NCBI GenBank assembly: GCA_963969365.1
Contig: OZ017748.1
Span: 1,240,001-1,304,000, forward strand
Length of the DNA stretch: 64,000 nt
Reading direction: 5' to 3'
Source: Asterochloris sp. CNOR1
Taxonomy: Eukaryota; Chlorophyta; Trebouxiophyceae; Trebouxiales; Trebouxiaceae
Shown: positions 1-55,200 of the stretch, piece after piece
How the letters are laid out: each line of letters starts with the position of its first letter
Numbering within the stretch: position 1 is the first letter of the stretch
Notes under the pieces: generated by a model
Databases searched by the model: none
Seen by the model: only the letters and a program-made list of their open reading frames with translations
What the model was told of the DNA's origin: nothing
Made by a program: the position numbers and the translations under genes

Positions 1-3000
1 GTGTAAATGTTTCTCTACGAGCCGCTTGTGCTGCGCCAGCAGGTCTGCCTGGCGCCCCAGCGCCTGCTGCAACTCCCGCTGTCGCCGCACCTGCTGCTCG
101 CGCTTGTGCACCTTGGTCAGGCCCTGCAGGCCAGGTCTCCAGGAGATGGTAGACCAAGCTGCTAGCAGCTCTACGCTTGCACAGGCTGGTGCTTGAACAT
201 GCTGTATGTGCTTTTGCACCTCAGCTAAGCCCTGGAAACCAGAGGGGCCGAGGAAGGCCCCAACGCTGCTGGCAGCTGAGGGCTTGCACAAGCTGCGTGT
301 GCTGATGCACGCCTGTGGCATCCTAAAGGGTGCTGACGGTTTGGGACAAGTTCAGGTTGGGAACTTCATGGTCAGCTATACAGTGATTGCTGCCTGGCAG
401 GCACAAATTGGCGAGGGGCGTGGACTGTTGTTGCAATCAAGATGTGGCCAGATGTTCTGGCAGGCATGCCTCTGGCTGGCAGCGCCAAACCTCTCCAGGC
501 TACACCGCAGCCTATTGCAGCTGCGCTTCCCTCAAGACACAGGCCCACCTTGCTGGGAGGCTCCATGATGGGCTTCCTGGCGCCGTCTGGCAGCTCCTGC
601 ACCACTCCTGGGGCACGCCACACATGCGCGGCCACCTCTGCAGGTGCACAGTGACAGCACGAGTCATTCAAGGGGACGTAGGGAGGCACTGTCAGTCTCA
701 ACCTGGGTCTGTCGGCAGCAGAAATGCACAACCAGGTGTGCAGAGTGGTGCACGCAAAGACCGCCCAGGACATGGCGCACCCTCCTGGCTGTTCTCCTTG
801 CCAGCCAACCTGGCAGCACCCTTCTTCTTGCGCTTGCCCTTGGCAAAGGCCCCATTGGCTGCCGCTGCCAGGATCTCCTCCAAAGCTGAGGGACTGCACA
901 GCAGCATTTAAAGTGACAGGGCCCAGCAGCCAGAAGCAGCCCTGCTTGCAGCAGCAGTGCACCAGCCCACGGAGTGCAGCACCCCACGGAGTTGCAGCCA
1001 TTGCCAGCAGCTTTATGTAGGTGAGGACAGCCTGACGGGCAGCTGCAGCATGCTTGATGTCCAGAAGACCACAAGTCTCCTGCGCCGGGCTGTGCAGCCT
1101 GCAAGGGACGCTTCCAACTCGGCCCAGTTACATTGACAACAATGATGATGTCTCTGCAGCCACCTATCACACACACATAGAGGGCCTCCCCAGTGGCTCT
1201 CACCTCCAGTCGGCCATGTGGGCAGCCATGGCCTGCAGGTCTGCACGCAGCTCGCCACGCTCAGCCTCCAGGGCAGCAATGTGAGCCTGCATCTCACCCC
1301 GCCCCTCAGCCCGCAGGCGCCCCTCCAGGGCCCTGCTGACCTCGGTCGCCCGCTGCAGGTGGTCCTGCAGGCCTCCATGCAGGCTGGGGGCAGCTGTAGA
1401 GTTTTGAAAATATGTTATTTGGAAAGTCAGAGACGCCCCTCCAGGGCGCCTGCCCTTGGCCAGCCACTGCTTCTGCAAGCAGCCCTTTGCCCCGGGGTTG
1501 AGCCAGCTGCCAAGGTGACCTCTGGCGCCTCCTGCAGGTGCTGCTGCAGACAGCCTGACATGAAACTGAGGCAGCTGGCAGGCTGGCAGGGTCAAATCAC
1601 TGCTCAGCCTGCAGCTGGCAAGCTCAAGGGATTGCTGGAGGGGTCTGTGCGTCCAGCCAACCATCATGAGCTGCAATAATGTGCATCTTGAGGAGCATGC
1701 TTTCGACATCATTGAACATGCAGCTATACTGTCTGCCTCAGGTACGCTGATGATGGGCTTCAAGCAAGTGCAGCAGGCAGGATAGCACTCATTTGTCAGC
1801 CGGCACTCGGCTGACCGAGGGCAGCCACAAACAGCAAGCAGGCTGGCATTAAAGACCAGCAGCCCTGCTGTGCTGGAAGCTGGTCTCTCATTGCGTCCAG
1901 CACGAGCAACCTCAATGGGCCAGCACACACAGCGCCAGTCGAGCAGGCCGCCCACCTGCAGCTCCATGATGCGCAGCTTCAGTGCCCTGCTCTGCTGGCG
2001 TTGTGTGTCCAGCTGTGCCTCCAGCTCCAGAGCCCTATCATCCGTCTGCTGACAGCTGTCCACCTGCATGTGCATGGCAGCTTGACAATACGCCATTGAG
2101 CCTGTGATTACTGCCAGCAAATTTTGGCGGTGTCAGCCTGGTCCCTGCCCTGACACACACCGTCCCAACACCAGTAAAAAGCACAAACAGCACGCCCTTC
2201 CTGCCAGCACTGAACTGCGCAGCAGCCACCAGACAGCCCTGGACCAGGCATGTGGATTGGCGTTGACAGCAGCAGGTCTGGCTGCCTTCTAACATCTAAA
2301 AGTCTCTGGCGCTGGACTGCCTGCAGTTGAACGGTTGGAAGTCTTGCTGATAGCACAAGCAACATGGTACCATCGGGTTGAGAACCTACAGGTGGTGGAT
2401 GACTTTTCAAGTTCTCCAGTGCCTTCTGAGACACCTCTGCCTGCGCCTGCGCGGCTGCCAGCTCCCCCTGGGCGGCAGCCAGCTGGTCCTCGATCTCTGC
2501 CTGGCGGGCCTGCTGCTCTGACACCTCGCGCTTGTAGGTATCTGTGACCTTCTGCAGCTGCTGCACGAAGGTTTCCTCCAGCTCAGCCATCTGCAACGCA
2601 GGCAGATCCTGCAGTCAGGTGGTGGTGCAGGCAGTGGAGTGGGTGCTTTCCAGTTTTCTGTGACCTTCTGCAGGTACTGCACAATGGCCTCCTCCAGCAC
2701 ATCCGTCTGTGACAGGGGCAGAGGTAGCAGTCAGGTTGTGGCGCAGGGTTGGTCATCTGCCATGATGACAACGTGCTTTTTCAGAGGTACCTGTGACGTC
2801 CGTGCCGCTATGCACCCAGATGATGTGATTTGCAAATGCTCTTGGTGGCCACCTGCCTTGGCCCAGACAGTCAATGCATGACTGGTCAGCCAGCAGCTGT
2901 GCACAGACAGGCTGGTGAGCTCAGGTCTCAAAGTTAGATCTGCATGCAAACCAATGAGAACCTTGCTGCACATGCAGCACATGCCAGCAGCATGTTGGAC

Positions 3001-6000
3001 AGAGCAAGACCGACCTGCGCTTTAGCTCTGTCGTCTGTCTGGGTCTGGTCAGCCAGCAAACGATCCAGCTGGGTGTGCAGGTCCTTGACTATGCGCTCAG
3101 CCTCTGCCTTGTACCTGCACACAGGCGTAGCAGGGGCGTCTCACGAGGCAGTCACAAAGGCATGCTGCTGCCCGCTCACAGGTCCAGCAACAGCCTGCTG
3201 CACATTTTTACTGCACTCTTCACATTTGCAGCATGCAGTAGTGCAGCAACAGCAAGTGGTCAACAGCAAGCCGTCCCAGTGGTTTGAAACAGCAGCCTGC
3301 ATCCCTAGAGAACCCTCCACCACCTTCTCAGCCTAGGTGCTTGGTGGTGGCAATGCACAAGGGCATGGCGGCCCAGCACCCTCACCGATCATGGGCTGCC
3401 TCATAGTCTTTTAAGGTTTGCCTTGAATCCGCCAGCTCCCTCTGCACCTGGCGCAGGCCAGCCATCTCCTCAGCGACATGCTGCTGCAGGGCCTGCTCCG
3501 ACTGCTGCAGCTCCTGCAGCTGCTTCTTGGCACGGTCAGCAGAGCCCTGCTGGGCTGCGCAGGCCGCCTCTGTCTCGCCCCGCCTGATCTGCAGGCAGCC
3601 ACTTTGTGTATGGGCACCACTGCATGCAAACATACACTACCTTTATAGACACACACAAATACTCATGCCTGGCATCTTTAGGCTGCGCTGCACTGCACAC
3701 CCTCACAGATGCACAGCCACGCGCTCTGTACCCGTGTGCCTGACAGTGTTCGCCACCCCAGCTTCCCACTTGCTCAGCAGCCCGCTGCTGCAACAGCGCC
3801 ATCTTCTTCTATTGGGAGGCATCTAGGTCTCTTGAGAAGGCCACCGGATTTGTCCACCGCTCTCACACGAGCCACCTGACTTCGCCTGCTCAGTGCCCAG
3901 CTGATGCTGCAGCCCCTGTTGCCTCAGCCGGGAGGCATTGGGACCCCTGGGAGGGCCATCATTGTCACTCAACTGCCTCAAAGGAGGCCCATGACCCCAC
4001 CTGCTCAGCCGCCAGCTGCTGCTGCAGTGCCCTCTGCTTCTGCTGGGAGGCATCCAAGTCTCCCGAGAGGGCCACCAGCTGGCTCTGCATGGCTCGGTAG
4101 TCCTCTATGGCATTCTGGCGCAGGGAGGATTCCGTGGCCAGTTGCTGCTGCAGCACGCGGGCGTCCTGCGGGCAGCAGTTGCCGCTAAGTAACATGACAG
4201 GAGAGTCGTTGACAGCTGCTGCTGCACTCGGGGAGCTCAGCATCTTGCTTGTTAATGAAGGCTGCAAGCATTGGTGACAGACTGCTGCATGAAGATGCCT
4301 GCAGCAGTGCTGGCACTGCAAACGGGCGTCAGGCAGCACTGTGGTGCTTCCATGACGCCCTCCAGCAACATCTGGTGCGCCATGGTGGATGCTGAGCATA
4401 CTAAGTGATGAGCACAGCATGGACATCAGAGGCACATCCGGTGTGCCTTGCTGGATGCTGAGCATACCAAGTGATGAGAAGAGCATGGACATCAGAGGCA
4501 CACCTGGTGTGCCTTGTTGCGCTGGATGGTCAGCTCTGCCAACTGCTGGCGCAGGGCCTGTGAGTCCTGCTCTGCCCTGCGCAGCATGCTGGCGCCGTCC
4601 ACCAGCTTCTGTTGCAGGGCACCAATCTCCGCCTGCAATGGGCAGCAGTGGTGTGGCTGCAGCGTTTGCGCAGACTTGTCTGGGGCGCAAAGGACACGGC
4701 TCCAGCTGCTGTTGCAGGGCAGGTATGTCTGCCTGCAGCAACAGGGCTTGCATGGCTTTGAGCTTGCTGCTGTAGAAGAGATTCGCAGCAGTGAATGGCT
4801 ATGCAAGCCGCCATGGAAGGGCAGAACTGTTGTACACAGGCATGGCTGGCATGGTTCAGGCACTGGGCCAGGTCATGACTGCAGCAGGCATGCAGCAGTG
4901 AAGGGTTCACCCGCAAGCTGCCCACAGGCCAGCCTTTACAAAGATGAGCACAGGACCTGCTTGAGCAAAGTGCCAATGCATCTGTTTTAGTGTTGAGGGA
5001 ATGATGGTGCGGGTGCTGTGCTGCGGGGCCATGCTGATCACCTTGAAGTCCTCATCGTCAAGAGTGGCTGTCTCCAGCTGGTCCTGGAGACGAAGTGTCT
5101 GCTCCTGCAACCCAGCAGCTCACAGGTCGCAGTGACTGCAAGCATGGCCCCTGCGCACTGCCGACAGGGCAACAGTGACAGCGAACTGGCTATCGTGCAC
5201 GGTCTGCAGCAGCAACAACGCATGCATGGGAATGTTGTAGAGTATAGAGGCTGGGCAGCATGCTTATGCTCAGACAGTGATCTGTCGCTGTCACTGTCAC
5301 TGCCATGCTGGCATGGCTCTCAAAGGTGCTTCAAATGGCACCTGATCAGCAGATGACACGAAAGGGGGTGCGCGAACACAGGAGACCTCACCTGCAGGTG
5401 CGCAACCTGCTGTTTCAGCCCCTCCTTCTCTGCCAGCGCGTCTGCCAGCTGCTGGCGCAGCTGCTGGCTCTGCTGCTTGGCAGCTGTGGCCCCTGCGCTC
5501 TGGGTCTGCAGCTGCTGCTGGAATGACTGGGCATCCTCCTGGCTGCTGGTCAGGGCACTGTTTACCTGCAGCAGACAGGCTTCGTGGTGAGACAAGCGTG
5601 TGCAGCCTGCGCTGAGCTGCGCAAGATGCCGCACTGCATGGCAAGAGAAGTCCTGCTGAGGCACTCACTATCAGGGCACACTGGCTGCACCCACATGCAG
5701 GCTCACTCATGCCAGGTGTCGCTTGAGCGCAGCAGCCCTCCCCTGCAGGACTGCTGCATCATAGACATGCCATGCTGCTTGACAGCAAGGACAGGCCGTG
5801 CTGGCATGCAGGCTGACCGATGCCAGCTGCTGCCTGAGCGCTGCAGCCTCCCCCTGGAAGTGCTGCCTCTGGTCGAGCTCCCGTGCCAGTTGCTGCTGGG
5901 CTGCCTTACACTCCTGCTGCCACCGGTCGCTGGAGGCCGTCTTGGCTGCCAGCTGCTGCCTCAGGTCCACGATCACCAGTTCCATGGCCTCACACCGCCC

Positions 6001-9000
6001 CTGCAGTGCACAAGACTCGGTAGGCAGCATGCCAGCAAAGTTCCTCAGCAGTCAGAATAGGCCACACTCTGCCAGCAGCACACCAGAAGAACATGCATGC
6101 TGTCACAGCAGCGATGCAGCGCATGAATAGTTTGCAGGACTCAATGGGTCTTGGACCACATCGATGGGGATGGCCAGGTGGTCAGGCAGATAGGTGTGCG
6201 GTTCGTGCCTGACACACATCTCTGCAGCAAGCCAGCAGGAAACCAGAGGAGTGGGGCTTGCACAAGCCCCTGCAATGCACCTGTAGGGGCGTGCATGCAA
6301 GCGCTTGCCTCTTGGGTGCACCCAATGAGAGCTTATTGCAGAGAAGTGGGTCAGGTATCAACCACAATCTAGCGGATGTCCAGCAGGAAAGCGCCTCGAT
6401 TGACACTTGCAAGAGGATTTGCAGGCAAGCAGCTTGCACTAGCCTTGCAGGACAGTATGTTGGTGGGCAGCTGCTGGGCTGCAGAGTTGATCAATATAGC
6501 TGGAGACGCATCCAGCTGCATGTAGCTGTACCCCCCTCCCCCTGCCATCCCCCCACCTGCCCCCATGCGACGGCCAACAGGCAGGTTTGCTGCATGCAGA
6601 GAGCCTTGTATGCTTGCACACAGTAATGCAAGAAGTGTGGGCGGAACGACCATGTGACTCTGCACCTGCGCCAGTGACTTGTGCAGCAGCTGCAGCTGTC
6701 TACCTGCACCTCCACCAGCTGCTTCTGCAGAGCGAGCAGCTGCTCGTGGTTGGCATCCCGCGCCCCTTTGGCAGCGTCCAGCTCCTGCTGCAGGGCCTTG
6801 GACTGCTTCTGCAGCAGGTTGACCTGCTCCTGGCTCTTCTCCAGCTGGCCGCCTGTGTCAGCAGCCTGCATCGCCCGAAAAACAAGAACCCAGTAAGTTG
6901 TACACTTAAGCGGCAGCTTCATGATTTGGCCTCTGCCTGCGTCAGCAGCCTGCATCCCTAGACAGGGAAAGAAAAGGACAGAAGGCAGGTCACAGCAAGA
7001 GTGAAGCTGCTCAGCTGCCCCTGTCAGCAGCATGCAACCCCCAACCTGACTGCTCATCACATTGGACATTCCTGGGCTAGCCATCTAAATGGCAGATGTT
7101 CAAATCAGACTGCAGTGCCTGTGACTGGTGCCTGGCACTGCCAGGCAGGCAATCTTTAGGGTTCAGAGTAGCCCACAGTGCTGCACTGGTTGAATAAGCA
7201 AGCACCTCCAACAGCTGGCTGCATCTCTGCCTGTAGGTGCAGAGCATCAGTGCTGGCTGTGACCGCAAAGCTGTATGTTTCTGTCAACGCCTGGAAGCAC
7301 TCAGCCGCCTCACCTGCAGACGCTGCCTACCTGCCAGAGCATCCCTGCTGCCACTGACCGCGAGGCAAGAAACAACATGACACAGGATAGGTGAGGGCGC
7401 CCCACCTGCAAGTGCTGCATCTGTGTCTGGTGGCAGTAGCTGCAAGGTGCATGATGTGGCAACACCTACTGCTCCCACCTGCAGACGCTGCTTCTCTGTT
7501 TGCTGCAGCAGGGCATCCCTGCTGGCAGTGGCAGCCGCCAGCTTCTGCTGCAAGTCCAGGTTAGCCTGCTCAGCCTGCTCCAGCGCTGCCGCGGTCTCCC
7601 CCACTTTCTGCCCAGTGGCTTCCAGCTGCTGCTTCAGCTTGTCCCGCACGCCGCAGGCAGAGGTCAGCTGGGTCTGCAGGGCCTGCTTCTCCTCCTGACA
7701 GCGCTGGTGGGCTGCTGCTGCCTCCCGCTTCTGCCTGCAGCCACACGAGGCGTCATGAGTGTTCATCAACAGTCAGCTGGCTCTGCAGAGTCTGGTCTTC
7801 CCTTGGGGGTGCTGGTGGGCTGCTGCAGCCTCCACCTTCTACCTGCAGCGCCCTGGCTTGCGGTGAGCGTGCTAGCCATTTGTTTTACCTTGCTTTGTCT
7901 GCTGCTGGCAGCAACAGGTGCAGGGCCTGAATGCAAGGATGCTGCAGGCCCCTCTTGCTGTGCATAGCTTTGCCGTACCCCAGACTGCCAGAGTGTCAAG
8001 GTGGTGGGCTTGCACACTGGCACTGCAGCACTGGAAGTGCAGACAGCTGATACACGAAGATGACTGCCTCAACAGAGGGCTGCCTTCATGTCTGGCGGCA
8101 CAAGTCAGGTTGACCGCACCTATCAAGCTGCGCCATGGCGTCTGCCAGCTGCCGCTGGTGCTCCTCTGCATCTTTCCTCATGCGATCCTCAGCCGCCAGG
8201 ACTGCTGCCTTCAGGGCCTCGAAACGCGAATTTGCGGACAGCAACTCCGCTCTGCATTGCATAGGCAGTGTGCAGCTTTGGTCATTGCCGGGCCAGGCAT
8301 AACATGTCAAATGGCCCGCCCCGCACTGGCTGCAGGCTGCATGTAGGTGCCACTGGTATCTTGAAGTGGGTCTTCCTGATTACAGCACGTTCTCTGCAAC
8401 AGCATGCGGTCAGCACATTGCACAAACGTCTCAGGCCAACCTCCAACAGGGGAGGGTGCACTACCCAGGGCGTGAACACTAGCTGGCGACCATGCCAGTC
8501 CAGCTTGTAGTGTCGAGGAACGACTCTGCCACCTGATGCAGACCTGGTGTAGCGCCTCGTGAGCCCACCTGAGCCTCTCAGCCTCAGCTGCCATGCGCTG
8601 GTTGTCCGCCTCCACCCCCTGCAGCCTCTCAATGATCTGGTTCAGCACTTTCACCTCCGCCCGCAGGTTCTCGTAGTCTGTCTCCGACTGCTTGGCGTCC
8701 GCCCTACGGGCAGACAGACAGTTCTGTGACGGCATGCAGACAAACCTCTGCAACTTGACAGCTGCTTGGCAGGCGCAGAGGTTGTCTGGGGAGCTCGTGC
8801 ATGTAGTGCACAGGGCCTTAAAGCATTGTGCATGAGCAGGTACTTTCGGCATCCCTATGCGCAGCAGTTGCCTTGCACCGTTCCGCAAGCCTGGACACCA
8901 TAGTCAAGACCGCCACTGTAGCAGATCTGAGCTGCAGATGCCTAACAGTAGGCCTTGCGGCTGTAAGCAGCTGCCCTCCCTGGAGCTTTGGGAGCAGTGC

Positions 9001-10762
9001 GTCAAGGTCGCCTCACATCCAGACATCCCGTGTGACCTCCATGCAGCGGCAGTCTTCAGATACACAGCAACGCCTTGGGACCCTTTGTGGACAGCCGCTC
9101 GTATGCTAAGCAGACCAGCAGTCACTGACCTCAGCTTCTCGAGCATACGTGTGAGATGCTGGGTGACCTTCCCTGTGGCCTACAACGTGAAGAGGCAATG
9201 CATCCACCACCTTGCCTCAGAGGCTCCGGCATGCACTTGAGCTGTACCCTCAGTCGTTTTCTGTGCCCTGTCTGCCAACAAAAGCGTCAATTCTCACGTC
9301 AGAGTCCCCAGCAAGCCTTTATGGCAAGTGGCCCCCGTACTGTGCGTTATGTATACACAAATGTTGAGGTGGTGCACCACCCACCCAACCCCGCCTCACC
9401 TCAGTGTCTCCAGCATGCGCTTGAGCTGTGCATTCTCAACATCTGCCCCCTGCAGCTTGACGATGAGGGACTGCAGCCGCGCCAGCTCTGACTTCATCAT
9501 GCTCAGCTCCTCCGGGTCCATCTTGATCATGCCATCCTCTGCAGCCTGGCGGTTGGCTGCTGCCAGCTCCATCTTCTCGCGCTGCTTTGCCATTGACGAG
9601 GCTGTGCCCTGGACGCAGCACACATCAGGCACCATCAGTGCAGCCAGAGCTGGGAGGCACCTGCAGCGCGGTGCATGTGGGCCAGCATCACGGCAGCTGG
9701 TTCCATTGGGCGCCTCTGAAGGGGCGATTGAAGGACCATGCAGCAAGTACACATGGTGTCACGACAGGTGGGCATGCAGCTTTCTTGGCCTATGGTGTCG
9801 GACAGGACTCAAGTTTGTGGGTGCCCTGAGCAGCACCGGGCATTGTCATCCCCCACAAGGATGCATGCGGCATTGTGCAGGAGCCCTCAACCTTGTGCAA
9901 ACAGTCATGGTCATGCCTCACCTGCGACAGCCTGGAAGCGACTTTGGCTGCTGCTGAAAAGCTTGCTTTCTTCTTTGCGCTGCCGCCAGCGTCCTTGGCC
10001 GCGTCTGAGCCTGCAGACGTCAAAGGCGCTCATTCCAGTGACTCACAACAATACCATTGGGCATCTACTGGTCGGTTCATGACGTGCCATGCAGCAGAGA
10101 CCGCTGCAAAACATCACTGTCCTGAGATATGTACCAGGGGTCCCCCACAAATTCATGTGCTGGCAGTACAGGGCAGCTGCACACCTCCTGAGGATGGGGG
10201 GACCAGCTTGTCTGCTGGAGCTGCAGCCGTGCCAGAGCTGCCACTGCCCAGCGTGTGCAGGGCCTGAGTAAGTTCCTGATTGAGCTTGTTCATGTGTGCC
10301 CCTGGGGTGGTGAGGCCCAGGGCAGCCAGCGCCTGCTGCTGCTGGGGTGTCAGCTGGGCGGGCATTGCCCCGTCTGCAACTCCTGTGCTGCCACCTGAGG
10401 CTGTGGGCGTGGTTGGACCGCCTGCAGCACACAGCTGGTGTGTGTCTTGAAACCTGCCTGCTTGTATAGGAGCTGAAAGCCCACCAGCAGCCTGCTGGCT
10501 GCTGCGAATGATGCATGCCTGAGAGCCCTTGATAATCGATGCGTCAGGGTGCATCATGGCTGCAGCTTCCATGATGATGCTACTTGGTTGGTCCAGGGTG
10601 GTGTGTGGGGTCTTGTGTGCAGCAAATGAGGCAGTGATAACCAGATGTGCACCCGGTGTGTGCAAAAGGTAGCTGATCCCAGCTTACTGCGTGGCTTTGC
10701 CATACACATGACAACATACCTTGCGCTCCCACAGCCTGCAACCTGCTGAGCAAGTCATCCAT
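1..10762 (-). CDS. Large coiled-coil protein, 3' part outside window (partial)
   Basis: I do not recognise the family. At least 21 exons join in phase from an ATG in a good context (ACCATGG, 10760-10762) leftward to the window edge. The product opens with MDDLLSRLQAVGAQ, then a Gly/Thr/Pro/Gln-rich stretch (exon near 10190-10430), an Ala/Lys-rich stretch (about 9930-10012), and then an almost unbroken Gln/Glu/Leu/Ala coiled coil. The coiled-coil exons lie near 9400-9610, 8570-8705, 8120-8255, 7480-7735, 6710-6870, 5830-6017, 5395-5570, 5045-5112, 4515-4630, 4000-4165, 3375-3590, 3030-3115, 2410-2590, 1960-2075, 1215-1360, 790-895, 560-640 and 1-127. A basic patch KGKRKKKGAARLAGKEN is encoded near 800-850. 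The last exon seen still encodes coiled coil, so the protein continues. Its start faces that of a TSNAXIP1-like axonemal gene. A scaffold, tether or axonemal role is possible but is inference only. Some exons may be missed. Confidence 0.7.
2541..2750 (-). repeat. Acceptor-side echo of a coiled-coil gene exon
   Basis: On the plus strand TCTGTGACCTTCTGCAG and the following CTGCAC..GG..TCCTCCAGC (true exon, 2541 on) recur at 2657, an offset of 116 bp. The copy still encodes a decayed LEEAIVQYLQKVTE version of LEETFVQQLQKVTD. Confidence 0.8.
3769..4081 (-). repeat. Three copies of a coiled-coil gene exon end
   Basis: The true exon end (about 4005-4081 on the plus strand: CCTGCTCAG..GCTGCTGCTGCAG..GGGAGGCATCCAAGTC) has copies at about 3769-3846 (GGGAGGCATCTAGGTC) and 3885-3965 (GGGAGGCATTGGGACC). 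Spacings are close to 117-118 bp. Confidence 0.8.
4388..4530 (-). repeat. 65-bp tandem repeat at a coiled-coil gene donor
   Basis: GATGCTGAGCATACTAAGTG (4388) and GATGCTGAGCATACCAAGTG (4453) begin two copies about 90% alike. Each ends with GTGTGCCTTG, and the exon edge follows with GTGTGCCTTG and CGCTGGATGG. The unit therefore carries the complement of the donor region (AAG|GCACACC) each time. Confidence 0.85.
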
Positions 10763-11413: not shown

Positions 11414-14400
11414 ATGGCCCCAGATGCGGATCGGCGGCATGCCTCTGCTTCCGTCCACATCCAGGTCAAGCTGACAGAAGCCTTGGATTACTGCGACTCG
11501 CTGTCCCCACCACGAGCCACAGAGGATGGGCAGCCGCAGCCAGACAGGCTGAGGACTGCTGTTTGCTGCAAGGTGGGCACCCCTGCAGGCACGCAGCCTA
11601 CCTTGCCGCTGCCGGCTGCAGCAGCGACAGCTAGTGCAGGGCGTGTGTCCAAGCTTGTCTTGAAAGCTGCAGTAACAGTGATGAAGTCCTGGCCCGCTTC
11701 TTGGGGGACTGAGCACCAGCAGCGCGAGATTGTTCATCACTGCAGGCAGACATGACCTCACCAAAGTGCTCAGCAGGCACCTGTGCACTGTGGCTGAGAC
11801 AGCATGGTTCCTGCCTCAGTCTGCAAGGCCTTGCCAGCCCTGCAATCCTTGGCACAGCTCTTCAGGCAGGCATGTGTCTCCACTTGCGAAAGTTCGCTCA
11901 CCTGCCTGGGCTGTGCAGGTCCTGACAGAGCTGTGCCAAGGTTTGCGAGACTGGCCAGGCTCTGCAAGCCGAGGCAGGAACCATGCCTGCGGCCATGCGG
12001 ATGCCTGCTGTGAGCTGTAAACGTATGCAGATCTTGGCATGACCGTTTCGCTGAATGCTCTCACCATGTGTGCATCATGTGTGCAGATCCTGGCAGAGCT
12101 GTGCAGCCTGGCCGGTGCCTTCCAGACCGTGCTGACCACCATCCACCAGGAGCTGGTACGCTCAGTGTACAGCACGTACTACTCAGCTGAGGCCGGCACC
12201 CTGCAGTTCAGCCAGGTGGAGGTCATGCTGGAGGCAGTACCTGGCACAGCGTCTGCTTCCAAGGCTGCATGTGCCAAACGCTGTAGCTTGGCCGGTGGCC
12301 GTACTGCAGGCTTGCATGTGAGCTAGCAGGGGGCCTTGCATGAGGCAGTGCCTGGCATGGAAATGGGCACTATGGCTGTAATGCGGAAGTTGTTGTTGCT
12401 GCCACTACTTGCTGGGCTCAGGGCTTGCTTTCACGCAGGGATCACATCCTCCATTCTTGCTGAGCAGGTGCCCTTGTTCATGTCAGCAAAGCATGCATTC
12501 ATGTCAGCAAATGATGGCCTGCAGGTGCCCTTCTTTGTGGCAGTGGAGCGCTTGGAGCAGGAAAAGCGCCATCTGCTGAAGGAGAGGGAGACCTTCAAGC
12601 GTGCTCTCATGCGGCGGCAGGTGAATTGAGTTAGTTTGGCATGATAATGTGGCATGCTTGATGCATGGCCTGCAGCCCAGATGGGTCCATGATGAGACAC
12701 AGGTTAGCAGGTGCTGGCATCCGACCAGTTGTGCGTGCGGCAGAGAAGCTGGACTTAAGCGGCACCAGTCCCAGGACAGCTGTGAAGCATCCTGCACTCA
12801 TTTATGCAGCGCTGTCTGGCATGCAGGCAGAGATGCGCCACGTGGAAGGCCAGGTGGCCGGCTTGCAGTCAGCCCAGTCCTTAGCTGAGCGCCAGAATCT
12901 GCAGCTGGCCGAGCGTGTGGCAGCCGCAGGGGAAGGCGAGGCAAGGGCGCGACTAGAGGCCGGTGCTGCCCGCGAGGAGCTCAGGCGTGTGCGCAAGGAC
13001 CTGCTGAAGCTACGGGATGAGTGGAACAACCTGCGCGCTCTGTATGAGGCCACCAAGGTAAGAGAGGGCTGGGGAGTTCACTGCACACTGGAATGAGCTC
13101 AAGAACAGGGCGCATGTGCGCCAGGACCTGCTGAAGCTGCAGCATGAATGGAAGAACCTGCACACGCTGTACAAGGTCACCAAAGCGAGGGGTGATCATC
13201 CACATACGTGGAGTGCAGCTGTACATTGAAAGGACCTGCTGAAGCTGGGGACAAGTGGAACAAATCACAGGCATCTTCGAGGCCACCACGATGGACTGCC
13301 AGTGCTTATATGGGCATGGAAGCTGGGAAATGTTGTCAGTGAGAGCTAGGTGGCTCAAGGGACGTTATGAGATGAGACTGCATGAGCTGTAAGCTGCCAG
13401 GATCTGTTGCGACCTGCTCAGTGGCTGCATCCTGTAGCTGCACCACCTGGGCATTGCAGGCTGCCTGGGACCAGCTCTGACTTGGCTTGCACTCAGAGCA
13501 AGGCAGCAAGGGTGTGGGCCCTAGCAATGGCAGGCAGGCAACAGGCATGGCCATAATGGGTCACAAAGTGGTCTGCTCCTTCTCTGTTTCAGACTGTTGT
13601 TGGGTGGGAACAGAATGATCCTGGCAGGGCAGCTGCTGCTCTGGGCTCTGCATGGAAACATTGTTCAATCTTGGTGGCCTTAAGAGCGCCCGCAAAGTTT
13701 TGTACTCATCCTGCAGACTGACCTGTTGTATCACTTGCCACATGCCGTAGTCATTCTCTGTCTGCCAACCACCTAGGTCCCAAACACCTCGCTGCCCTCC
13801 ACACAGGCCAAGCCTGAGCAGATACAGGCAGCCTGCGATGCCCACGTGGCGCAGGCCCAGGCGACGGCGCAGCAGGCGCGGCAGGAGCTGCAGGAGCTGC
13901 GCAGCAAGATGGCGCATGTGGTGTCCAAGGAGAAGCTGACTGCAGCTCTGCAGCGCATTCAGGTGCGGCAATGGTGAAGATGGCATATGTCGTGTCCAAG
14001 GAGAGGCTGAGTGCCGCTCTGCAGCGCATTCAGGTGCGGAAGTTGTGTGGTGTCACACCAGAACAGTGACATGTAAGGAGGCTGGCAACATCATGGAGCA
14101 GATGCCAAAAGAGGTTCCGACTGGCCTACCGTAGTCAGGAGAGAGCATGGGTAACCCTAGGAAGCGGCCCGGCGATGGCACATGGCCACATGGTTTGCCT
14201 GCTGGCGTCGGGGATTTGAAAGGCGAGGGTGGGGACATGCTTCAGACATGCATACAAGCGATGCTGATGCTCGCTTAGCCTGTCGTGCTGCGCAGAGCCT
14301 CCGTATCAGGAGCTGGAGTGTCTGCAGCAGAGTGGCCCATATGACCTGCACCAGGACGTGTGCACCTCCTGCTTTGCAGTCCTCACGCTGCAGTGGCAGG

Positions 14401-39134: not shown

Positions 39135-39174
39135 ACTAGATGTGGAATAATAACCACATCTGGGGCAAGAGGGG

Positions 39175-40960: not shown

Positions 40961-42849
40961 ATGGAGTTCATAAGCCCTGAGCAGCTGAGGCTGGACGGCA
41001 GGCGCCCAAAGGAGCTGAGACAGTTGCAGTGCGAGATCGGAGTGCTGGGTCAGCAGGCAGATGGATCAGCCACCTTTTCCATGGGCAACACAAAGGCAAG
41101 GCTTAAGCACAAGCATACTCGACATGCTCAAGCGCTGCTGGCAAAGGACTGCTGCATGTCCCTTGTTCATGCAGGTCCTGGCCTCTGTCTTTGGCCCCAA
41201 ACAGGCCAGCTCCAGGGCCACTGAGAAGCATGGCATGGCCACGGTGCGCTGCGAGTATGCCATGGCCCCTTTCAGCACAGGTGAGTCTGCAGCAGCACAC
41301 TGTCTGTCAGACTGCAAGGGCTGCACCTGTGGCCGTATGGCCTGCGTCTCCCTTCGCTCTGTTGCAAATCGCTGTTGACTTGTCCAGGCTGCCGCTGAAC
41401 CTGCACATACTTCATTCTCTGCAGCAGTGCTCTATCACATCATCTAGGCCCTTGGCAGTGAGCGCCGTGTGCAGCCTCTCCAGCCTCTCATTGCCTCAAT
41501 GGCTTGGCTATGATGTCTGTGGTGACCTACAGGCGAGCGGCGCAAGCAGGGCAGATCTGATCGCCGTGCAGCTGAGCTTTCTGCCGTCATTAGGAACACA
41601 CTGGAGCAGACCATCATCTTGGAACTCATGCCCCAGTCCCAGCTGGACGTGTATGTGCACGTCATCCAGGCAAGGCAGAATTGTCAAGTGAATTATGGCA
41701 AATTCATCGAACTTTGGCGTGTATCACAGCTGGGTGCATTGGCGTCACCCAGCCCCCTTGGTGTGGCCGCCTGCATGGTATGCAGCCGTCGTGGTGGTGC
41801 CCTGCCCATGACAAGGAGGCTGCCTGTTTGTGGCATGTGTTCCAGCCTCCACAATTGGGCAGTGTCTTATAGCGCTGCCCAACAGCATGCTGCTGCATCA
41901 CACTGGCAACCAGGCTGTTGTTGGAAGTCCTCCTGTGAGTTGCTGTTGCTGCAAACCCTGGAGGCAGGCGCAGGCACCTCGCAGCAGAGCCATCAAAGAC
42001 GCCTCGCTCGTGCCGTCAGCCAACCTGATCCCTCTTGTCGCTGAGGCACAGCCCCGAGTCTGGCTGTGTGTCCTGCAGGCATACTATGGCACCTGCTGCC
42101 TTTGTCTTGCTGGTGATGGCAGACGCAGGCACCTCATCCCTCCCGTAACTGAGGCGCACCTCAAGGGATCATGGCGTGTCCTGCAGGCAGACGGAGGAAC
42201 CCGCTGCGCAGCCATCAACGCTGCCCTGCTGGCGCTGGCAGATGCAGGCGTCCCACTGCGGGACATGGTGGCGGCCTGCGCAGCAGGCTACCTGGACAAG
42301 ACCCCCATTCTGGACATGAACTATCTGGAGGATGCTGGGGGTGGGCCAGACGTGGTGGTGGGGGCCCACATGAGCTCTGGGTCCATCGTGCTGCTTCAGG
42401 TGGGGCGTGAGGGCTGTTAGCTGCAACCACACCCTTGCGGCCTGGGCAAGGGACATATCCTGCGGCTTTGCTGGTGGCAACTCCCTTGCTGCTTTGGTGA
42501 TGCTGGCTGTAGACTTGTTGCCACAGAGTCAGGCCTGCTGCTTGTCCTGGTCCTGGATTGTGGGCTGCTGCTGGTTTGCACGGTGTTTTCAGCAGCTGGG
42601 CTTGCACAGTGCAGCAATCGGCACCTTCCACAGCTGTCATCGTCTTTGCAATGCTTACAGGTGCATGTCTGGTATTCAGCAGTTGTTCTCTGTGTGCAGA
42701 TGGACAAAAACATGTCGGTGGACACCTTCAGCGAGGTTTTCACGTTGGCAGAGCAGGGCAGCAAGGTGGTGGGCCAGTTCATGCGCCAGCAGCTGCTTGA
42801 GCACACCCAGTGCCAGGCAGCCGCCTGCATGCCTGCCATGCCCACCTGA
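40961..42849 (+). CDS. RRP41: Exosome complex component RRP41 (RNase PH family)
   Basis: Core-ring subunit of the nuclear and cytoplasmic RNA exosome. In plants this subunit keeps phosphorolytic activity. Five exons give about 246 residues against 241 in Arabidopsis. Exon 1 (40961-41095) encodes MEFISPEQLRLDGRRPKELR and ends SMGNTK. Exon 2 (41176-41280) encodes VLASVFGPKQASS and VRCEYAMAPFST. Exon 3 (41532-41669) encodes SDRRAAELSAVIRNTLEQ and LMPQSQLDVYVHVIQ. Exon 4 (42188-42399) encodes ADGGTRCAAINAALLALADA and LDMNYLEDAGGGPDVVVG. Exon 5 (42701-42849) encodes FSEVFTLAEQGSKVVGQFMR and ends AACMPAMPT. LDGRR, QADGGTR and the NYLEDAGG element are family landmarks. Two of the four introns need GC donors. 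The ATG at 40961 matches the family start. Confidence 0.96.
41096..41097 (+). other. GC 5' splice site (RRP41 intron 1)
   Basis: GGCAACACAAAG|GCAAGG joins GNTK to VLASVFGP after CATGCAG. The intron start has no GT that keeps the frame. Confidence 0.85.
41670..41671 (+). other. GC 5' splice site (RRP41 intron 3)
   Basis: GTCATCCAG|GCAAGG joins VHVIQ to ADGGTRCA exactly as in the family. The next GT (GTGAAT, about 41690) would insert six unconserved residues. Confidence 0.8.
42024..42255 (+). repeat. 108-bp tandem duplication across an RRP41 acceptor
   Basis: Copy 1 (42024-42131) and copy 2 (from 42132) share CTGAGGC, GTGTCCTGCAGGCA and GCAGACGCAGGC/GCAGATGCAGGC. Copy 2 contains the real acceptor and the first part of exon 4 (ADGGTR). 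Copy 1 is the decayed intronic version with an intact CTGCAG. A third, weaker copy may lie near 41965-42020. Confidence 0.8.
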
Positions 42850-43415: not shown

Positions 43416-45271
43416 TCAGCCAACAACCAGAATATTGTCCTCCTGGAAGTGGTACTCTGGAACCTCAAGGTTGTAGGGAGCTGGCCCCTTGCGGACACGG
43501 CCGGCTACATCGTAGTGGCTCCCGTGGCAAGGGCAGAACCAGCCGCCATAGTCGCCAGCGTTGGGCAGGGGCACGCAGCCCAGGTGGGTGCACACGCCCA
43601 CCACCACCAACCACTGCAGCAGGGCGAGAGTCTTGGTCAGTGCAGGCAAGCCTCAACACTGGAGTTGGCAAGTGCACAGGCACGAGTCGTTCAAGCCCAG
43701 ACATGAGGTAGAACAGGACTGTATGAAGTTCCTGCCAATACAAGTCTCTGCCTGCTGCAGCATCTCCCTCTTCCTTCCCTAGGCCGGGCCCTGTGTGGCC
43801 ATTCCGTACAATCTGTGCCACCTATACCCCATTCCATAAATCTTCTGTTGGGTCTACCTCTGGCTTCTGTGCCCGCTGATCGTCCGTCTCAGGGTCACGC
43901 AGCTCGCTCATGGGCGTCTCATTGGCCTTGGCGATCTCGGCCTCTGTGCGCCTTCTAACAAAGACAGGCTTGCCACGCCACTTGACAGTGATCGTGTTGC
44001 CCGGCTCAATCTTGGAGAGGTCCACCTCCAGAGAAGCCATGGCCAGCACGTCCTTGGTGGCCTGCACGACAGATGACCAGGGTTGCAGGCACTGGAGCCG
44101 CTGATGATTGTCAGCCAAGCAGCATTAGCATCAGCAGAGTGCAGAGCCTTAGCATTGGCCAGCACGCCCTGGATGGGCATGCAAGACATGTGCCCAACTT
44201 TCTGAGCGCTGACACCGCTTGGTGGGCACCCGTCAGACAGCAACGGCATCAGCAGAGAGCGCGGGGCCTCAGTCATGCCAGCACACCCTGAGAGGCCAGC
44301 AAGACCAGTGGCCGACTTGGGTTAAAAGCGCAGGCACCAGATGCAGGCAGCAGCAGAGCTGAGTTGGCAACAGCAGAATGCACACAGCTCCAGCTGTGAC
44401 CGGCATATGGAAATGTCCAGCTGTTCTTGTAAGATTTGAGGGTCTAGCCATGCCAGACCCTCAACAGTAATGTTTTCATCAGCAGAAAGCACACGGCCCA
44501 GCCATAGCGATGTGGCCGCAGCAGCAGATTGAATGGGGAGAGGGTAGCGCCGCTCAGCAAGCCAACCAAAGTTCATGGCAGCAAAGCACTGTCTGCATCA
44601 GGCACAGGTGCTAAGGCCCAGCCAGCGTCCCAGGCCACTGGAAGCACTCTGTATGCCAACCTAAGCAGCCAGGACCAAAAACGTGATGAGAACACATGCA
44701 GGCTCACCGTCATGGACAGGACAAACTTCAGCACGGCCAGCCTGATAGCCGAGGCATAGATAAAGCGCCCGCCAGTGAGGACAAAGTAGGTGAAGGCCCG
44801 TTTGCTGGGGTCGCCTGGGGCAAAGCGCTCGTGCGAGTGCTCGTCGTACCTGCACAGCGCACACAGGTAAGAGGGGTGGCAAAGCAAGCGCTGACAGGCA
44901 GCAGGGGCAAGCAGGCAGGCAGCATGGACAGCTTACTCAATGTCCGGCGTTGGGGTCTTGGCTGCCTGAACAGTGGGAGGCAGGCCGCTTGTTGTGGGCG
45001 TTAGGGCCGCGAAGTGTGCAAAGCCTGCAGCGGCAGAATGGATTTGAGAAACGACAGCAAGCCATGACATGGTGGCATTTATCAGAGGGCAGGCACATAC
45101 AAGAGCCTCACCCCTGCTTGCTCCTGGGATGACCATGCTGGTGCTTGTGAATGGCCCATCAGTGAGTGCGGAGGCCGTAAGCCCGGTCTGACCGCCAGCA
45201 GAGCGTGGCCCAGCAGTCCTCAGGCAGCTGACCAGCTTGGTGGCCTCCCTCCTGCCGCACCTGAACGCCAT
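43416..45271 (-). CDS. UQCRFS1: Mitochondrial Rieske iron-sulfur protein of complex III
   Basis: Carries the 2Fe-2S cluster that takes electrons from ubiquinol in cytochrome bc1. Five exons join in phase. Exon 1 (45110-45271) opens [20 protein letters not shown], a basic mitochondrial presequence. Exon 2 (about 44936-45027) ends [11 protein letters not shown]. Exon 3 (about 44707-44850) encodes [19 protein letters not shown] followed by the transmembrane anchor [20 protein letters not shown]. Exon 4 (43869-44061) has the hinge [19 protein letters not shown] and the start of the soluble domain, [17 protein letters not shown]. The last exon (43416-43623) has both cluster-binding motifs, CTHLGC and CPCHGS, and ends EDNILVVG. 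All four ligands (two Cys, two His) and the disulfide cysteines are present. The PEYHF end and presequence point to the mitochondrial rather than the b6f protein. Its start lies only 57 bp from the next gene's start. Confidence 0.96.
44041..44300 (-). repeat. Acceptor-side junction echoes of Rieske exon 4
   Basis: The plus-strand view of the true exon start (GGCCAGCACGTCCTTGGTGG, 44041) recurs at 44157 (GGCCAGCACGCCCTGGATGG) and 44276 (TGCCAGCACACCCTGAGAGG). Offsets are 116 and 119 bp. Confidence 0.8.
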
Positions 45272-49959: not shown

Positions 49960-49975
49960 CAACGTACTGGTTCCT

Positions 49976-49980
49976 TTACA
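49976..49980 (-). terminator. TGTAA polyadenylation signal for the nucleotide-sugar transporter
   Basis: The minus strand reads CTGTAAAGGAACC, 94 nt after the transporter stop and only 17 nt from the stop of the convergent M14 gene. Confidence 0.5.
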
Positions 49981-50073
49981 GTTCTGTCCCCCTTTGACTG
50001 TCAGCACTGAAGACAAATTGCAAGGTACGAGTGCATAAGAAGAGAATGAGTAACTAACCAACAGGCGTTGCTC

Positions 50074-52045
50074 TCACTTATTTGATCTCTGCTTGGCATT
50101 AACAAAGAGAATGCCTGCTACCAGACCTAAGAGCACACTGAGCATGTTCTGGATGGTGGCCGGCACATTGAATGCTATGAGGCCCAGGAAGGCAATGGGG
50201 ACCTTGTTCAGGGAGCCCACCAGACTGTAGGTGGTGGCAGTAGTGCAAGAGAGAAACCAGAGGGAGGCAAAGCTGATGCCAAATGAAATGAGGGCGCTTG
50301 CCACTGCTGCAAATATAAACCTGGGGTTGTGCAGGCCAGCGTCATTCTGCAGTTCCTTGAGCTCCCCCTGGTAAACTATGAGGACAGCCAGCACAGGGAG
50401 GGACAGAAAGTTGTTGTAGAACACCATGCTGAACTCATCCAATTTGGTCTTGTTCTGGGTCATGCCAACCACTTTGTCCATGACACCACGCAGATACAGC
50501 GAGTAGGCTGCTGTGAAGAAACAGTTGATCAGCTGCCAGACATAGCCGTACAGGTCGAAGGCCAGATCTGTGGCTGCCCCGCAGATGGCTGAAACCACCA
50601 TGAGGCCCATAGTGCTCCACACTCCGCAGCCATAGGTGCGCCCATAGAATGCGTAGTCTCCACTGATGGTGATGAGGTTGGTAAGGTTCTTGAGCACTGT
50701 GGCCATGGGCACTCCCAGATTCTTCAGGGCCAGGAAGCTGCTCCAGATCATGCCCACAAAGATGACATTGACTGGAAACCAGGCCTGCAGCGGATGAAAG
50801 GTGGCATGCTCAAGAGCCAGGCTGGCAAGGGTGGCATTGTTGGCCCAGGTGTGGGGTCCAGATGCCTGATCTGTAGCAGACAGGGGCGCATGGCTCGGCA
50901 CGATCAACATGAGTCCCCCTCCCTCAGTAGGCGGTGACCACAGCACAACACAAGCTCAGGTGTGGCGGTCTTGTGCACATCCAAGCACAGATGTCAAGTG
51001 CTGGGCTGCAAGATGCACGACGTCCTATGGAAGCTGCAAATCCCCCTCCAGTAGGGTGATATCCTGATCAACCATGGAAGTCATGTGCAGCCAGGGTAAA
51101 GGCACTCATGCCCACATTTCGGCTGCACTGCAAGATCAGTGCCTGGCTCGAAGCCCACTACATCATCAGATGGAGCTGCTCTGAACCAGCTGGCCCCATG
51201 GGCGACGCCGTTGCTACGCTTGGCGCCGCGTGCTCACCCAGTTGATTGCCGCTGACGCTTCAAGCAAGCCATCCAGCCTCCTCATGCGCAACCTTCCAGC
51301 TCCGCGGCTTCAGCATGACAGGGCAACCCAAACAGCGTGGCCAGTCGCACCAGCAGGGGGGCTCCCCCCAACCATAACAAACCAAGGCTGGGTGGTGCCC
51401 CCTCCCACCATCAATGCTGCCCCCCTCAAGTGGTTCATGCAGTGCATATGTTCACCCGGGCAATCTTCCAGCTCCATGGCTCCAGCTTGACCAGCCCAAA
51501 GAGCGATGCCAGGCGGACCAGCAGCACGCAGACAGCGCACTGGAAGAACAGGAGGCAGGTTGGGGCATCGAAGCTGAAGCTGCTGAGAGCTGCCTTGTTC
51601 AGAAGCACCATGCTGCCTGAGGCAAAGCAGTAGGCTGTGCCGCTGACAGCTGCTGCCGGGAGGCCCATCACTTTGCGGCCGTCCACCAGAGGGGTTGCTG
51701 CCTTGTGCTCATCCCCATGCTTGGGGTTTAGGGGGGCGGCCTGCACAGGGATGCCAGGCAACACTGTGAGCAGAGTGCTGTGACAGTTTGATGCGTGCCA
51801 CTTACGACCCCTGCTGTAGATTACATGGGAGTTTGGTGGTATGTCAAACCAGCCATCCACATCTGGCTGTCCTTGCTCACAGCCCAGGCAGCTAACGGCA
51901 AGCTCTGCTGCACTAGCCTTCGCACCTCAAGGTCTGGTTCAAGGTCTGGATCTGAGAAGCCAGGCTTGGAACTCAAAGGGAGCGAGCCATTCATCACCCC
52001 AAGCTTGATTTTCTCTCTGACTGGGCTGTCTCTCTGGACTCGCAT
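50074..52045 (-). CDS. Golgi GDP-mannose-type nucleotide-sugar transporter (GONST/VRG4-like)
   Basis: Membrane antiporter of the drug/metabolite transporter superfamily that imports a nucleotide sugar, probably GDP-mannose, into the Golgi. Three exons join in phase to about 370 residues. Exon 1 (about 51877-52045) encodes a hydrophilic cytosolic tail starting MRVQRDSPVREKIKLGVMNG. Exon 2 (about 51454-51749) has the first two membrane helices with ASGSMVLLNKAALSSF. Exon 3 (50074-50789) has the rest: WFPVNVIFVGMIWSSFLALK, VLKNLTNLITISGDYAFYG, an N-glycosylation-like NKT loop, and SLVGSLNKVPIAFLGLIAFN. The G[SA]LNK element is the nucleotide-binding signature of GDP-mannose transporters. About ten hydrophobic segments are visible. 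The C-terminal end KQRSNK is dibasic. Substrate choice cannot be read from sequence alone. Its start faces PRP39 at 206 bp. Confidence 0.9.
51250..51530 (-). repeat. Donor-side junction echo in the nucleotide-sugar transporter gene
   Basis: CTTCCAGCTCCGCGGCTTCA (51293) and the following GCGTGGCCAGTCGCACCAGC repeat the true exon end CTTCCAGCTCCATGGCTCCA (51465). The offset is about 172 bp. Confidence 0.75.
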
Positions 52046-52251
52046 CAAAGTTCGGCAAGTGCCCGGTAGACAAAGCGCATCAGCCCCTGCCGGGGTTCCA
52101 GATGGGATCCAGACACAGCCAGGCAAAACAGATTGGCTCAAAAAAGCCAAAACCACTGCAAGCAGCACCAATCGTTGACCCTGCAACAGATTTTTGACCA
52201 GCAGGCAGTGCGGCGATCTTGGGGCAGACTACTGCATAGCTGCAAGTCAGC
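52046..52251. promoter_or_regulatory. 206-bp bidirectional promoter, transporter / PRP39
   Basis: Shared upstream region of two divergent genes. No TATA box or obvious motif was seen. Confidence 0.5.
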
Positions 52252-55200
52252 ATGGCAGAGAACATGGAGGTGGAGCAGGTGCCAAGCGAAACTCCCAGCG
52301 CGGCAGCACTAGCATCAGACCCTGAGCAGCCTGAGGCACCGACCCCTGTGGCAGATGCTGCAACAACTGCAGGTGTTGCTGAAACAGGTGTCCCTGCTGC
52401 TGCAAATGCAGCAGACCAGCCTCCAGCTGAGGACGGGGCTGAGCTTGTGACAGGTAGGGCTTTCCTACTGCACGAAAGGTGACCCAGATCTTCAGATCTA
52501 AGCTGGAACATGGTTGTCAGTCCCCTCTGCCTAGGTAGCTGTGCTACATGCTGCTGGCTCATGCCTGCCCTTCTGAGCGCAATCATGTGTGCTGTAGCTG
52601 CGCCAGAGGTGGACCCTGCAGTGGCAGCCTGGCAAACAGAGTTTGACAGGGTCAAGGCCACGCCTGGCAGCTTTGATGCCTGGACAGCCCTCCTCAGTAG
52701 CACAGAAAAGCTGGTGGGCCTTGCCTGCACCCTGCAGCTCTCTCTGATGTTCTGCGCACTCTGTGGCATATTTCCCTTGCCATGCAATCTGGTCGGCCCT
52801 CCCTGTTGTCACTGAGGGCTGCCCTGTCTCCCTGACACTCCCACAGGGATGGAGGCCACTGTTCGGGCACCCTGACATCAGCCAGCCAGCACCGGCCAGC
52901 GGCTGCCTGGCTGCCCCACACTGTTGCCAGTTCTCACCAAGCGGTAGATGCCTCCTCTCTTTCCGCTGGTGTCATGCATCTGGAGCACTCAGCTGTCTGC
53001 TTCCTGCAGCATGCTGCCTCACCCAGCAGGGCGGCCTTGCCCAAGCAAGGTCCTGCCACCTGACTGTTCCACCTGTGCCCCGCATCTGCAGAACAACCTT
53101 GACTGCTCGAGGCAGGCCTACGACGTCTTCCTTGCCAACTACCCTCTCTGCTATGGCTACTGGAAGAAGTACGCGGATGCAGAGGCCAGGCTGGCCTCTC
53201 CAGAGGCTGCCACAGCAGTTTTTGAGCGGGGTGTGGTAGCTGTTCCGTACAGTGTTGACCTTTGGGGCCACTATGCCACCCACTTGGCCAGTAAGGGAGC
53301 TAGCGACGATGAGATGGCAGCGTGAGCACTGCCAGCTTGTGCTGAGATGGTGATGCCTTCACGCTATGACTTGGCAGCTGCCGATGCCGCCCCCTGGGCT
53401 GGCGCCGCCACAGCACTAACTTGTTCAGCACTAGAGCTAAGAGGCCTGTGGCGGCACAAGGCTGCATGTGCTGCAAGTCTTTCCAGCTGCATCCCTGTTG
53501 GCACGCAGCACTGCCATGCCGGTGGCCATGCCATTGACCCCGGCATGCTGCCTGTACAAATGCCTGTACTGCAATGCGACAGGATGGGACCCCCTCGCGG
53601 CTGCCTGATGTCTGTGCAGGCTCATTGAGATGGGCCGCATGCAGCATCGCAATACCAATGCAGCCAGGTGGGCCCGCTTAATCATGTGTTTCCCCTGTGC
53701 AGGCTGTTTGAGAGGGGCCTGGCCTATGTTGGTGTGGACTACCTGTCACATGTTTTGTGGGACAAGTACCTCAGCTTCAGGGCCAGTGGCGAGTCCCAGG
53801 TCCCCGTCGCAGATCTGTACAGCAGAATCCTGCGCATTCCTCTGAAGAAGCTGGATGATTATCACACCAGGTGGGTGGAAGAGCTGGGTGCACTGACCTG
53901 AGGTAGCTTTCCTGAACACACAAGCGGGGGCCTTGCTGCGCAGCAGTTCATAGACAGCACCGGTCAGACTCTGCCGATGGCGCCCTGACACCTGCTTTTG
54001 CAGGAACGGTGTAAGTCAAGGTGCCCTTTTGCGCGGGCACCACTCCTATCATTAGTATTAGTTTAGCAGTCTGCGTATCAGGCTGGCAGTCTGATGTGGT
54101 GCTGAGGTGCATGGTCCACGTGCTTGCAGTCCATGGTCTCCTTCATCAACTCAAGTCAGCATGCTGCTTATGCAGATTCCAGGCGTTTGTAGTGTCACAG
54201 GAGGTCAAGGCGCTGCTGCGGCCTGAGGACTTCAGCCGGCTGAGCGTGCAGGCAGCAGAGCACCAGAAGCTGGAGCAGGTGAAGCAGGAAGAGGCTTCTA
54301 AGGCGGCCCAGGCTGCAGCAGCATCGGCAGCAGCAGCAGCTGCTGGAGAGGGCGCAGCAGGTCAGTCATAGGCTGAGCAGGGTCAACATGGCTGATGCAT
54401 GCACCTTGATGGTCTGATCTGTTGCTCGGTACTGTCTGGATTAGTGCCTGCAACTGGCGTGCTCTCTGCTGGCAAGACGCTGAGCACAGTTGCACCTGCA
54501 GTCCTGCATTGCCCGGCAGACCCCCCCCAGCAGGGCAGCTGCTGATGCTGGTGTAGCCACACCCTCTGCAGGCGCAGCCACACCCTCTGCAGGTGCAGCC
54601 GACGCCAGCATGGCTGATGCAGCAGCAGCCCCTGCTGCCGCGCTCAAGGCGGAGCCTGAGGCTGCCGTCAAAGCAGAGCCTGACACTGACACCTCCATGT
54701 CAGACGCAGCTGCTGCTGTGCCCGAGGACACTGCGGCACTGCTAGCTGAGCCCAGCGAGGACAGCCTGCGTGCAGCATACCTGCGACAAATGGCTGAGGT
54801 GAGCCCTGAAAGTCCAAGTGCTTGATGTGGGAGTCTGTCTTAGCATGTCGGGCACCTGCAAGACATCAGCACCTGGCAGCATGAATGCTGATTCAGGGTG
54901 CTGCCAGTGGGAGCAAGCCGACTCACTTCAAAATTGCATCGTGCCTGCTGTTGTCGTCGTCAGCAGGCTGCCTTTCGGAGTGTGTTGCTGGCTAGCTCAG
55001 GTCAACATTGGCTGCTGGCATTGCACGCTGACTGTGCTTCCTGCTGTGATCAAGCAGACCTGGCCTGCTCCCTGCCAAGAGCTCTGCATAGCTCCCTGCC
55101 CCGAAGTTGTCCCCTGTCCACAGCTTTGTCTCTTCCTGCACCAGGTGTACAATGCCACAAAGGAGGAGTGGAACCGGCGGGAGCAGTTTGAGAGAGGCAT

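Follow-up and report, generated by a model that had tools for sequence, protein, structure and literature searches.

Small tandem duplications are a common class of mutation. The present work deals with traces that such duplications may have left in the genes of a 64,000-nt stretch of the green alga Asterochloris sp. CNOR1 (contig OZ017748.1, positions 1,240,001 to 1,304,000; the whole stretch is referred to as the window), where many introns hold decayed copies of adjacent exon edges. The closest described systems are summarized here. At DNA breaks, CST-Pol alpha fill-in followed by end joining makes small tandem duplications of less than 100 bp (PMC8355091), which resemble the copies in the window in being local and head to tail; the units found here, however, are mostly 59 to 184 nt long, old and decayed. 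In a potato RdRp gene, a new intron arose with a tandem duplication across an intron-exon boundary (PMC4974935). As in the window, the duplicated segment spans the border, which places a second splice site close to the first, but in the window nothing points to a new intron and the copy sits inside a longer, existing one.

Exonize surveyed 20 eukaryote genomes for exon duplications, among them intronic, partial and inter-boundary ones, and reported degenerate exon copies within introns of the same gene to be common (PMC12343006). Such copies are shared with the present case, although Exonize starts from annotated exons with coverage cut-offs, whereas here one exon edge is copied together with the adjoining intron. 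The AGGT model of intron gain also involves local tandem duplication of splice signals, but in it the two copies of one AGGT become the donor and acceptor of a new intron, a layout seen in 0/26 cases here. Tandem exon duplication copies a whole exon with both splice sites, which none of the 31 usable alignments does. Introner elements are near-identical inserts at many unrelated sites, whereas no long-distance repeats were found within the window. In alternative or cassette exons the copy is spliced into mRNA, while the codon-position pattern of the present copies argues against coding use. No description of systematic growth of existing introns by exon-border duplication was found among the listed titles and abstract openings of the literature searched, most subscription papers lying outside that search. 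Duplication across a border is itself already known; what draws attention here is how dense the copies are in a single window and that young ones are missing.

Detection of exon-edge copies in introns

Exon borders were predicted with a purpose-written hidden Markov model (HMM) gene finder and curated by hand, with homology support for several genes. The curated set comprises 97 introns, 17,813 exon bases and 37,046 intron bases, and the splice signals fitted by the gene finder were CAG/GTGAG for the donor and TGCAG/G for the acceptor.

When the window was compared with itself, direct repeats with a BLAST score of at least 40 were concentrated at short offsets: 28 lay less than 300 nt apart, 1 at 300–600 nt, 2 at 2–4 kb and none beyond 4 kb. 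Over all offsets, two sequences generated by an order-4 Markov model had 0 and 1 such repeats. As no direct pair of this score was found beyond 4 kb, within the window the copies have the character of unique local sequence and not of a dispersed element. A tiled self-comparison (score of at least 34, spacing below 600) yielded 43 direct-repeat pairs, 29 of them scoring at least 40, while three order-4 Markov controls yielded 0, 1 and 0 pairs, none of which reached 40.

In a second test, the 60 nt of each flanking exon nearest the intron were scored against that intron. Introns of at least 100 nt were taken (87 of 92), which gave 174 tests. At a score of at least 32, 15/174 edges matched their own intron; other introns gave an expectation of 0.06, and the reverse-complemented own intron gave 1 match. 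The corresponding figures were 18/174, 0.58 and 4 at a score of at least 28, and 30/174, 4.2 and 11 at a score of at least 24. The copies of exon edges in neighbouring introns are therefore real.

Visible copies were assigned to 28/194 exon edges, namely 16 acceptor and 12 donor edges (Table 1). Two of these edges, belonging to exons 16246-16633 and 25302-25650, are exceptions in that the alignment starts 45 and 22 nt within the exon and leaves the border uncovered. The initial annotation had cited 14 intervals in which introns hold degraded copies of the adjacent exon edge, on both donor and acceptor sides and over a wide range of identity. All 14 contain both copies of at least one pair from the tiled search, both sides are indeed affected, and BLAST identity across the 33 exon-versus-nonexon pairs ran from 95% to 67%. 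More than two copies are present at 12985-13263, 3765-4076, 26906-27195, 23474-23746 and 44040-44318. The excess over controls on which the proposal of the initial annotation depended is present in this window. The description there of introns as filled with copies was overstated, since visible copies occur in 29/97 introns and cover 3110/37046 intron bases (8.4%).

Layout and sequence character of the copies

In the clearest cases the copies lie head to tail with a spacing close to the unit length, as with the 71-nt unit at 13906-14047, and at 4368, 23474, 42023 and 44040 the alignments exceed one period. In many of the older pairs, the unit can now be recognised only in part. Same orientation and a spacing near the unit length, the marks of small local tandem duplication, are thus both found. 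Adjacent spacings (n = 35, with eight non-adjacent pairs left out) ranged from 59 to 184 nt with a median of 115; longer units would be at least equally easy to detect, and below about 50 nt sensitivity drops at high divergence. Twelve of the 35 spacings clustered in a single 13-nt interval (P = 0.04 with a lognormal and 0.005 with a uniform distribution as the reference), or 11/33 when one spacing per locus was kept (P = 0.07), so a preferred unit size is only suggested. The spacings showed no frame-keeping bias (remainders 0, 1 and 2 in 11, 9 and 13 cases).

Codon positions, splice sites and CAG triplets, and substitutions were counted in 31 of the 33 alignments, the pairs at 35443 and 53612 being left out. 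Mismatches between exon and copy were nearly equal at codon positions 1, 2 and 3 (93/539, 110/533 and 114/528) and only 13/74 gaps had lengths that were a multiple of three; the copies therefore do not look coding. Third codon positions being barely more divergent than first and second ones, it is as if the synonymous sites of the exons evolved far more slowly than the introns. Copied donor dinucleotides (17/24 bases matching) were no better preserved than their surroundings. No alignment among the 31 spans both edges of its exon, and in none of the 26 mapped junction copies does the copied junction lie 8 nt or less from any other splice site of the curated set. Such a geometry is not that of intron gain, and indicates that an existing intron was lengthened. 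Repeat-induced point mutation (RIP)-like hypermutation of duplicates was rejected, with 153 transitions, 164 transversions and no single dominant change.

Two inverted arrangements were also noted. One intron contains an imperfect palindrome at 11802-11986 (about 185 nt, 70% identity); one of its arms carries the acceptor-edge copy of the exon starting at 12087, and an inverted copy of that exon edge seems to be present. Elsewhere, 13438-13524 and 13773-13854, both in one stretch of intron, form an inverted local copy (74%) of the region around the acceptor of exon 13828-13962.

Proposed origin and competing explanations

The copies are probably relics of small local tandem duplications, mostly of the unit sizes given above, spread roughly at random across genes and mostly old. 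Under this proposal, a duplication wholly within coding sequence would alter the protein and be lost. After a duplication across an exon border, one complete border would stay in use while the spare copy entered the intron, which would become longer by the unit length; a duplication within an intron would be equally harmless. The copies would then drift, the intron sides decaying on both. Because the exon side hardly changes, exon-derived copies would be recognisable longest, and the visible survivors would mostly be exon edges. The first donor and the last acceptor would be the ones spliced. The source mutation may have been the repair of paired or staggered breaks by fill-in. Template switching is another candidate, to which the two inverted arrangements point as well.

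Ages were fitted by expectation-maximization (EM) on scores scaled to one unit, with 26 adjacent junction events in five score bins; the pairs left out were seven junction pairs that were not adjacent, three intron pairs from within arrays and two without assignment. From the lowest to the top bin, 14, 5, 4, 3 and 0 events were observed, compared with about 4, 4, 3, 4 and 11 under a constant rate, and all fitted ages were at least 0.2 substitutions per site. Since near-intact young pairs are lacking, a constant ongoing rate fits badly and the data look like an old wave. The pairs are taken to be truly old, rather than the young ones being absent for another reason. Under three parameter sets, the number of junction events in the window comes out at about 87, 179 or 612, most of them too decayed to be seen; these model-derived totals are very uncertain and likely an overshoot.

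Several other explanations were weighed against this one. Chance similarity arising from a repetitive, CAG- and CTG-rich base composition would agree with the abundance of TGCAG-like motifs in the window and with the slightly raised reverse-complement matches, but a chance or low-complexity origin is ruled out by the Markov and other-intron controls (0, 1 and 0 pairs against 43; 0.06 against 15), and its probability is negligible. It is very unlikely that the copies represent alternative exons or degenerate ones, or that they arose in the course of intron gain by tandem duplication. Splice dinucleotides are kept in some copies and the gene finder called a few of them exons; however, the even mismatches over codon positions and the gap lengths speak against an exon, none of the 26 copied junctions coincides with another splice site as intron gain would have it, and both edges of an exon are covered in none of the alignments. 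The initial annotation had suggested that introns here grow by repeated tandem duplication of their borders followed by decay. The duplication and decay were borne out, but growth that continues steadily to the present appears improbable: the wide identity range, the repeated rounds at several borders and the greater length of introns with visible copies (median 517 against 298, longer introns also offering more room for copies) would suit it, while none of the 26 events falls in the top bin where about 11 are expected. Collapse of identical copies in the assembly could mask the very youngest. It is conceivable, though rather doubtful, that much of the intron sequence goes back to a past burst of tandem duplications whose units tended to be near 115 nt, the introns being largely worn copies of themselves and of exon edges.

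The remaining alternative is that duplication was aimed at exon-intron borders, through a breakage hotspot or through selection keeping border copies. When the pairs were rotated 2000 times against the annotation, 33 exon-versus-nonexon pairs were seen against 16.7 under rotation, 8 intron-intron pairs against 15.2, and 0 exon-exon pairs against 6.3 (P = 0.0005). Selection on the proteins is expected to remove exon-exon pairs. The junction excess favours targeting, as does the preservation of the acceptor AG in the copies (see below). With the fitted old ages, however, 2.1, 6.8 or 4.1 visible intron-only events are expected under the three parameter sets and 5 are seen, so targeting of junctions is not needed and an old wave with a slowly changing exon side suffices; the earlier singling out of junctions as a special target is thus not supported. 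Donor dinucleotides are moreover not retained above background, and AG retention weakens once uncovered cases are counted. Targeting is accordingly regarded as unlikely.

Some observations nevertheless weigh against random, mostly old tandem duplication as the origin. The age fit rests on just 26 events in five score bins. Ages drawn at a constant rate predict a junction share of 38–52% in one simulation and 45–52% in another, whereas 33/41 were seen (P < 0.001), a discrepancy that also speaks for border targeting. Ages taken from local identity would lead one to expect 21.5 or 32.1 intron-only pairs where 8 were seen; these ages were discounted, since an old unit looks young when it is represented by a short piece of high identity. 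The few inverted local copies, and the reverse-complement control that exceeds other introns (4 against 0.58 at a score of at least 28), are not predicted by simple tandem fill-in. Finally, the acceptor AG was retained in 13/14 covered copies, compared with 70/122 other CAG (P = 0.009), or in 14/17 when three uncovered cases read by eye were added, which gives a weak hint of use or selection.

These results bear on how introns lengthen where transposons are not the cause. Because an exon edge changes slowly, it serves as a built-in reference for recognising and dating a decayed copy in the intron, and borders therefore allow old tandem duplications to be counted and dated. Should the density of 28/194 edges prove representative of the whole genome, this lineage would owe a measurable part of its intron sequence to small tandem duplication, and the lack of young copies would reflect a shift in mutation, repair or selection.

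Table 1. Exon edges with copies in the adjoining intron (positions in the window).
Feature	Span	Strand	Spacing (nt), identity and remarks
Acceptor edge, exon 1204-1364 (1337-1370), and intron copy 1516-1549	1337..1549	-	spacing 179; 82% over 34 nt; AG aligned with AG
Acceptor edge, exon 2435-2590 (2541-2631), and intron copy 2657-2747	2541..2747	-	spacing 116; 78% over 91 nt
Donor edge, exon 4001-4165, and two intron copies	3765..4076	-	spacings 115, 231; 81% over 81 nt, 74% over 77 nt
Donor edge, exon 4504-4632, and 66-nt tandem unit, about 2.3 copies	4368..4534	-	
Acceptor edge, exon 4504-4632, and intron copy	4602..4737	-	spacing 100; 83% over 36 nt
Donor edge, exon 5818-6000, and intron copy 5694-5760	5694..5869	-	spacing 111; 78% over 67 nt
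Acceptor edge, exon 6704-6865, and short intron copy	6851..6956	-	spacing 84; 95% over 22 nt
Donor edge, exon 7479-7734, and intron copy	7311..7530	-	spacing 165; 71% over 55 nt
Acceptor edge, exon 7479-7734, and intron copy 7772-7849	7663..7849	-	spacing 109; 80% over 79 nt
Donor edge, exon 9400-9608, and intron copy	9207..9429	-	spacing 184; 82% over 39 nt
Acceptor edge, exon 12087-12215, and intron copy	11912..12104	+	spacing 168; 92% over 25 nt
Donor edge, exon 12827-13057, and two intron copies (13112-13183, 13230-13263)	12985..13263	+	82% over 72 nt, 89% over 35 nt
Donor edge, exon 13828-13962; exact 71-nt head-to-tail unit, second copy in intron	13906..14047	+	spacing 71; 87% over 71/71 nt
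Acceptor edge, exon 15427-15645, and intron copy 15202-15314	15202..15449	+	spacing 134; 76% over 115 columns
Donor edge, exon 15427-15645, and intron copy 15738-15768	15624..15768	+	spacing 114; 90% over 31 nt
Inner part, exon 16246-16633, and upstream-intron copy	16111..16328	+	spacing 180; 84% over 38 nt; border uncovered
Donor edge, exon 16246-16633, and intron copy	16579..16908	+	spacing 287; 82% over 44 nt
Acceptor edge, exon 23396-23512; intron array, period near 115	23474..23746	-	72% over 165 columns
Inner part, exon 25302-25650, and intron copy	25217..25403	-	spacing 142; 83% over 46 nt; border uncovered
Donor edge, exon 27165-27303, and two intron copies (27076, 26906)	26906..27195	-	94% over 33 nt, 91% over 32 nt
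Acceptor edge, exon 27165-27303, and intron copy	27284..27500	-	spacing 176; 78% over 41 nt
Acceptor edge, exon 33882-34044, and intron copy	34028..34167	-	spacing 114; 88% over 26 nt
Acceptor edge, exon 35551-35678, and intron copy	35443..35588	+	spacing 94; 75% over 52 nt
Acceptor edge, exon 37444-37657, and two intron copies	36999..37514	+	75% over 59 nt, 83% over 36 nt
Acceptor edge, exon 42187-42399, and intron copies	41957..42249	+	spacings 108, 223; 67% over 123 columns, 73% over 63 nt
Acceptor edge, exon 43858-44061; intron array, period near 116	44040..44318	-	69% over 168 columns
Donor end, exon 51456-51740, and intron copy 51288-51356	51288..51524	-	spacing 172; 78% over 69 columns
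Acceptor edge, exon 53703-53870, and intron copy 53612-53636	53612..53719	+	spacing 83; 88% over 25 nt

Genes and other repeats of the window

Judged by their predicted products, the genes of the window are green-lineage nuclear genes. The HTPA reductase model matched 5u5i (E = 3e-103) and chains named chloroplastic, and the Rieske model matched 7jrg (E = 2.9e-58). Homology also supported models of a TPT-family transporter, a PRP39-type HAT protein, an M16 peptidase, a GST, an RNase PH family protein, an ABC protein and an M14 carboxypeptidase. The genes at 1–11 kb and 11–18 kb have translations that look coiled-coil-like by eye, the latter with a sub-threshold Pfam match only, and a Pfam search of the gene at 39175-40685 gave no match. 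The Rfam scan (gathering threshold) and the tRNA scan of the window were empty. Relatives were sought in viral contigs, where none was confirmed, and in genome contigs, where one weak bacterial match was obtained.

Four of the 97 curated introns (20585-21233, 27722-28096, 41096-41174 and 41670-42186) start with GC instead of GT. An 18-nt tandem repeat at 57085-57141 ends a long exon of the PRP39-like gene; it appears by eye to be in frame, with a YGAYPA-like unit. A tandem array with a period of 38 nt (2.9 copies) lies at 61900-62010, its end coinciding with the acceptor of the 62008 exon, and a 36-nt imperfect palindrome (83% identity) is located at 49306-49341.

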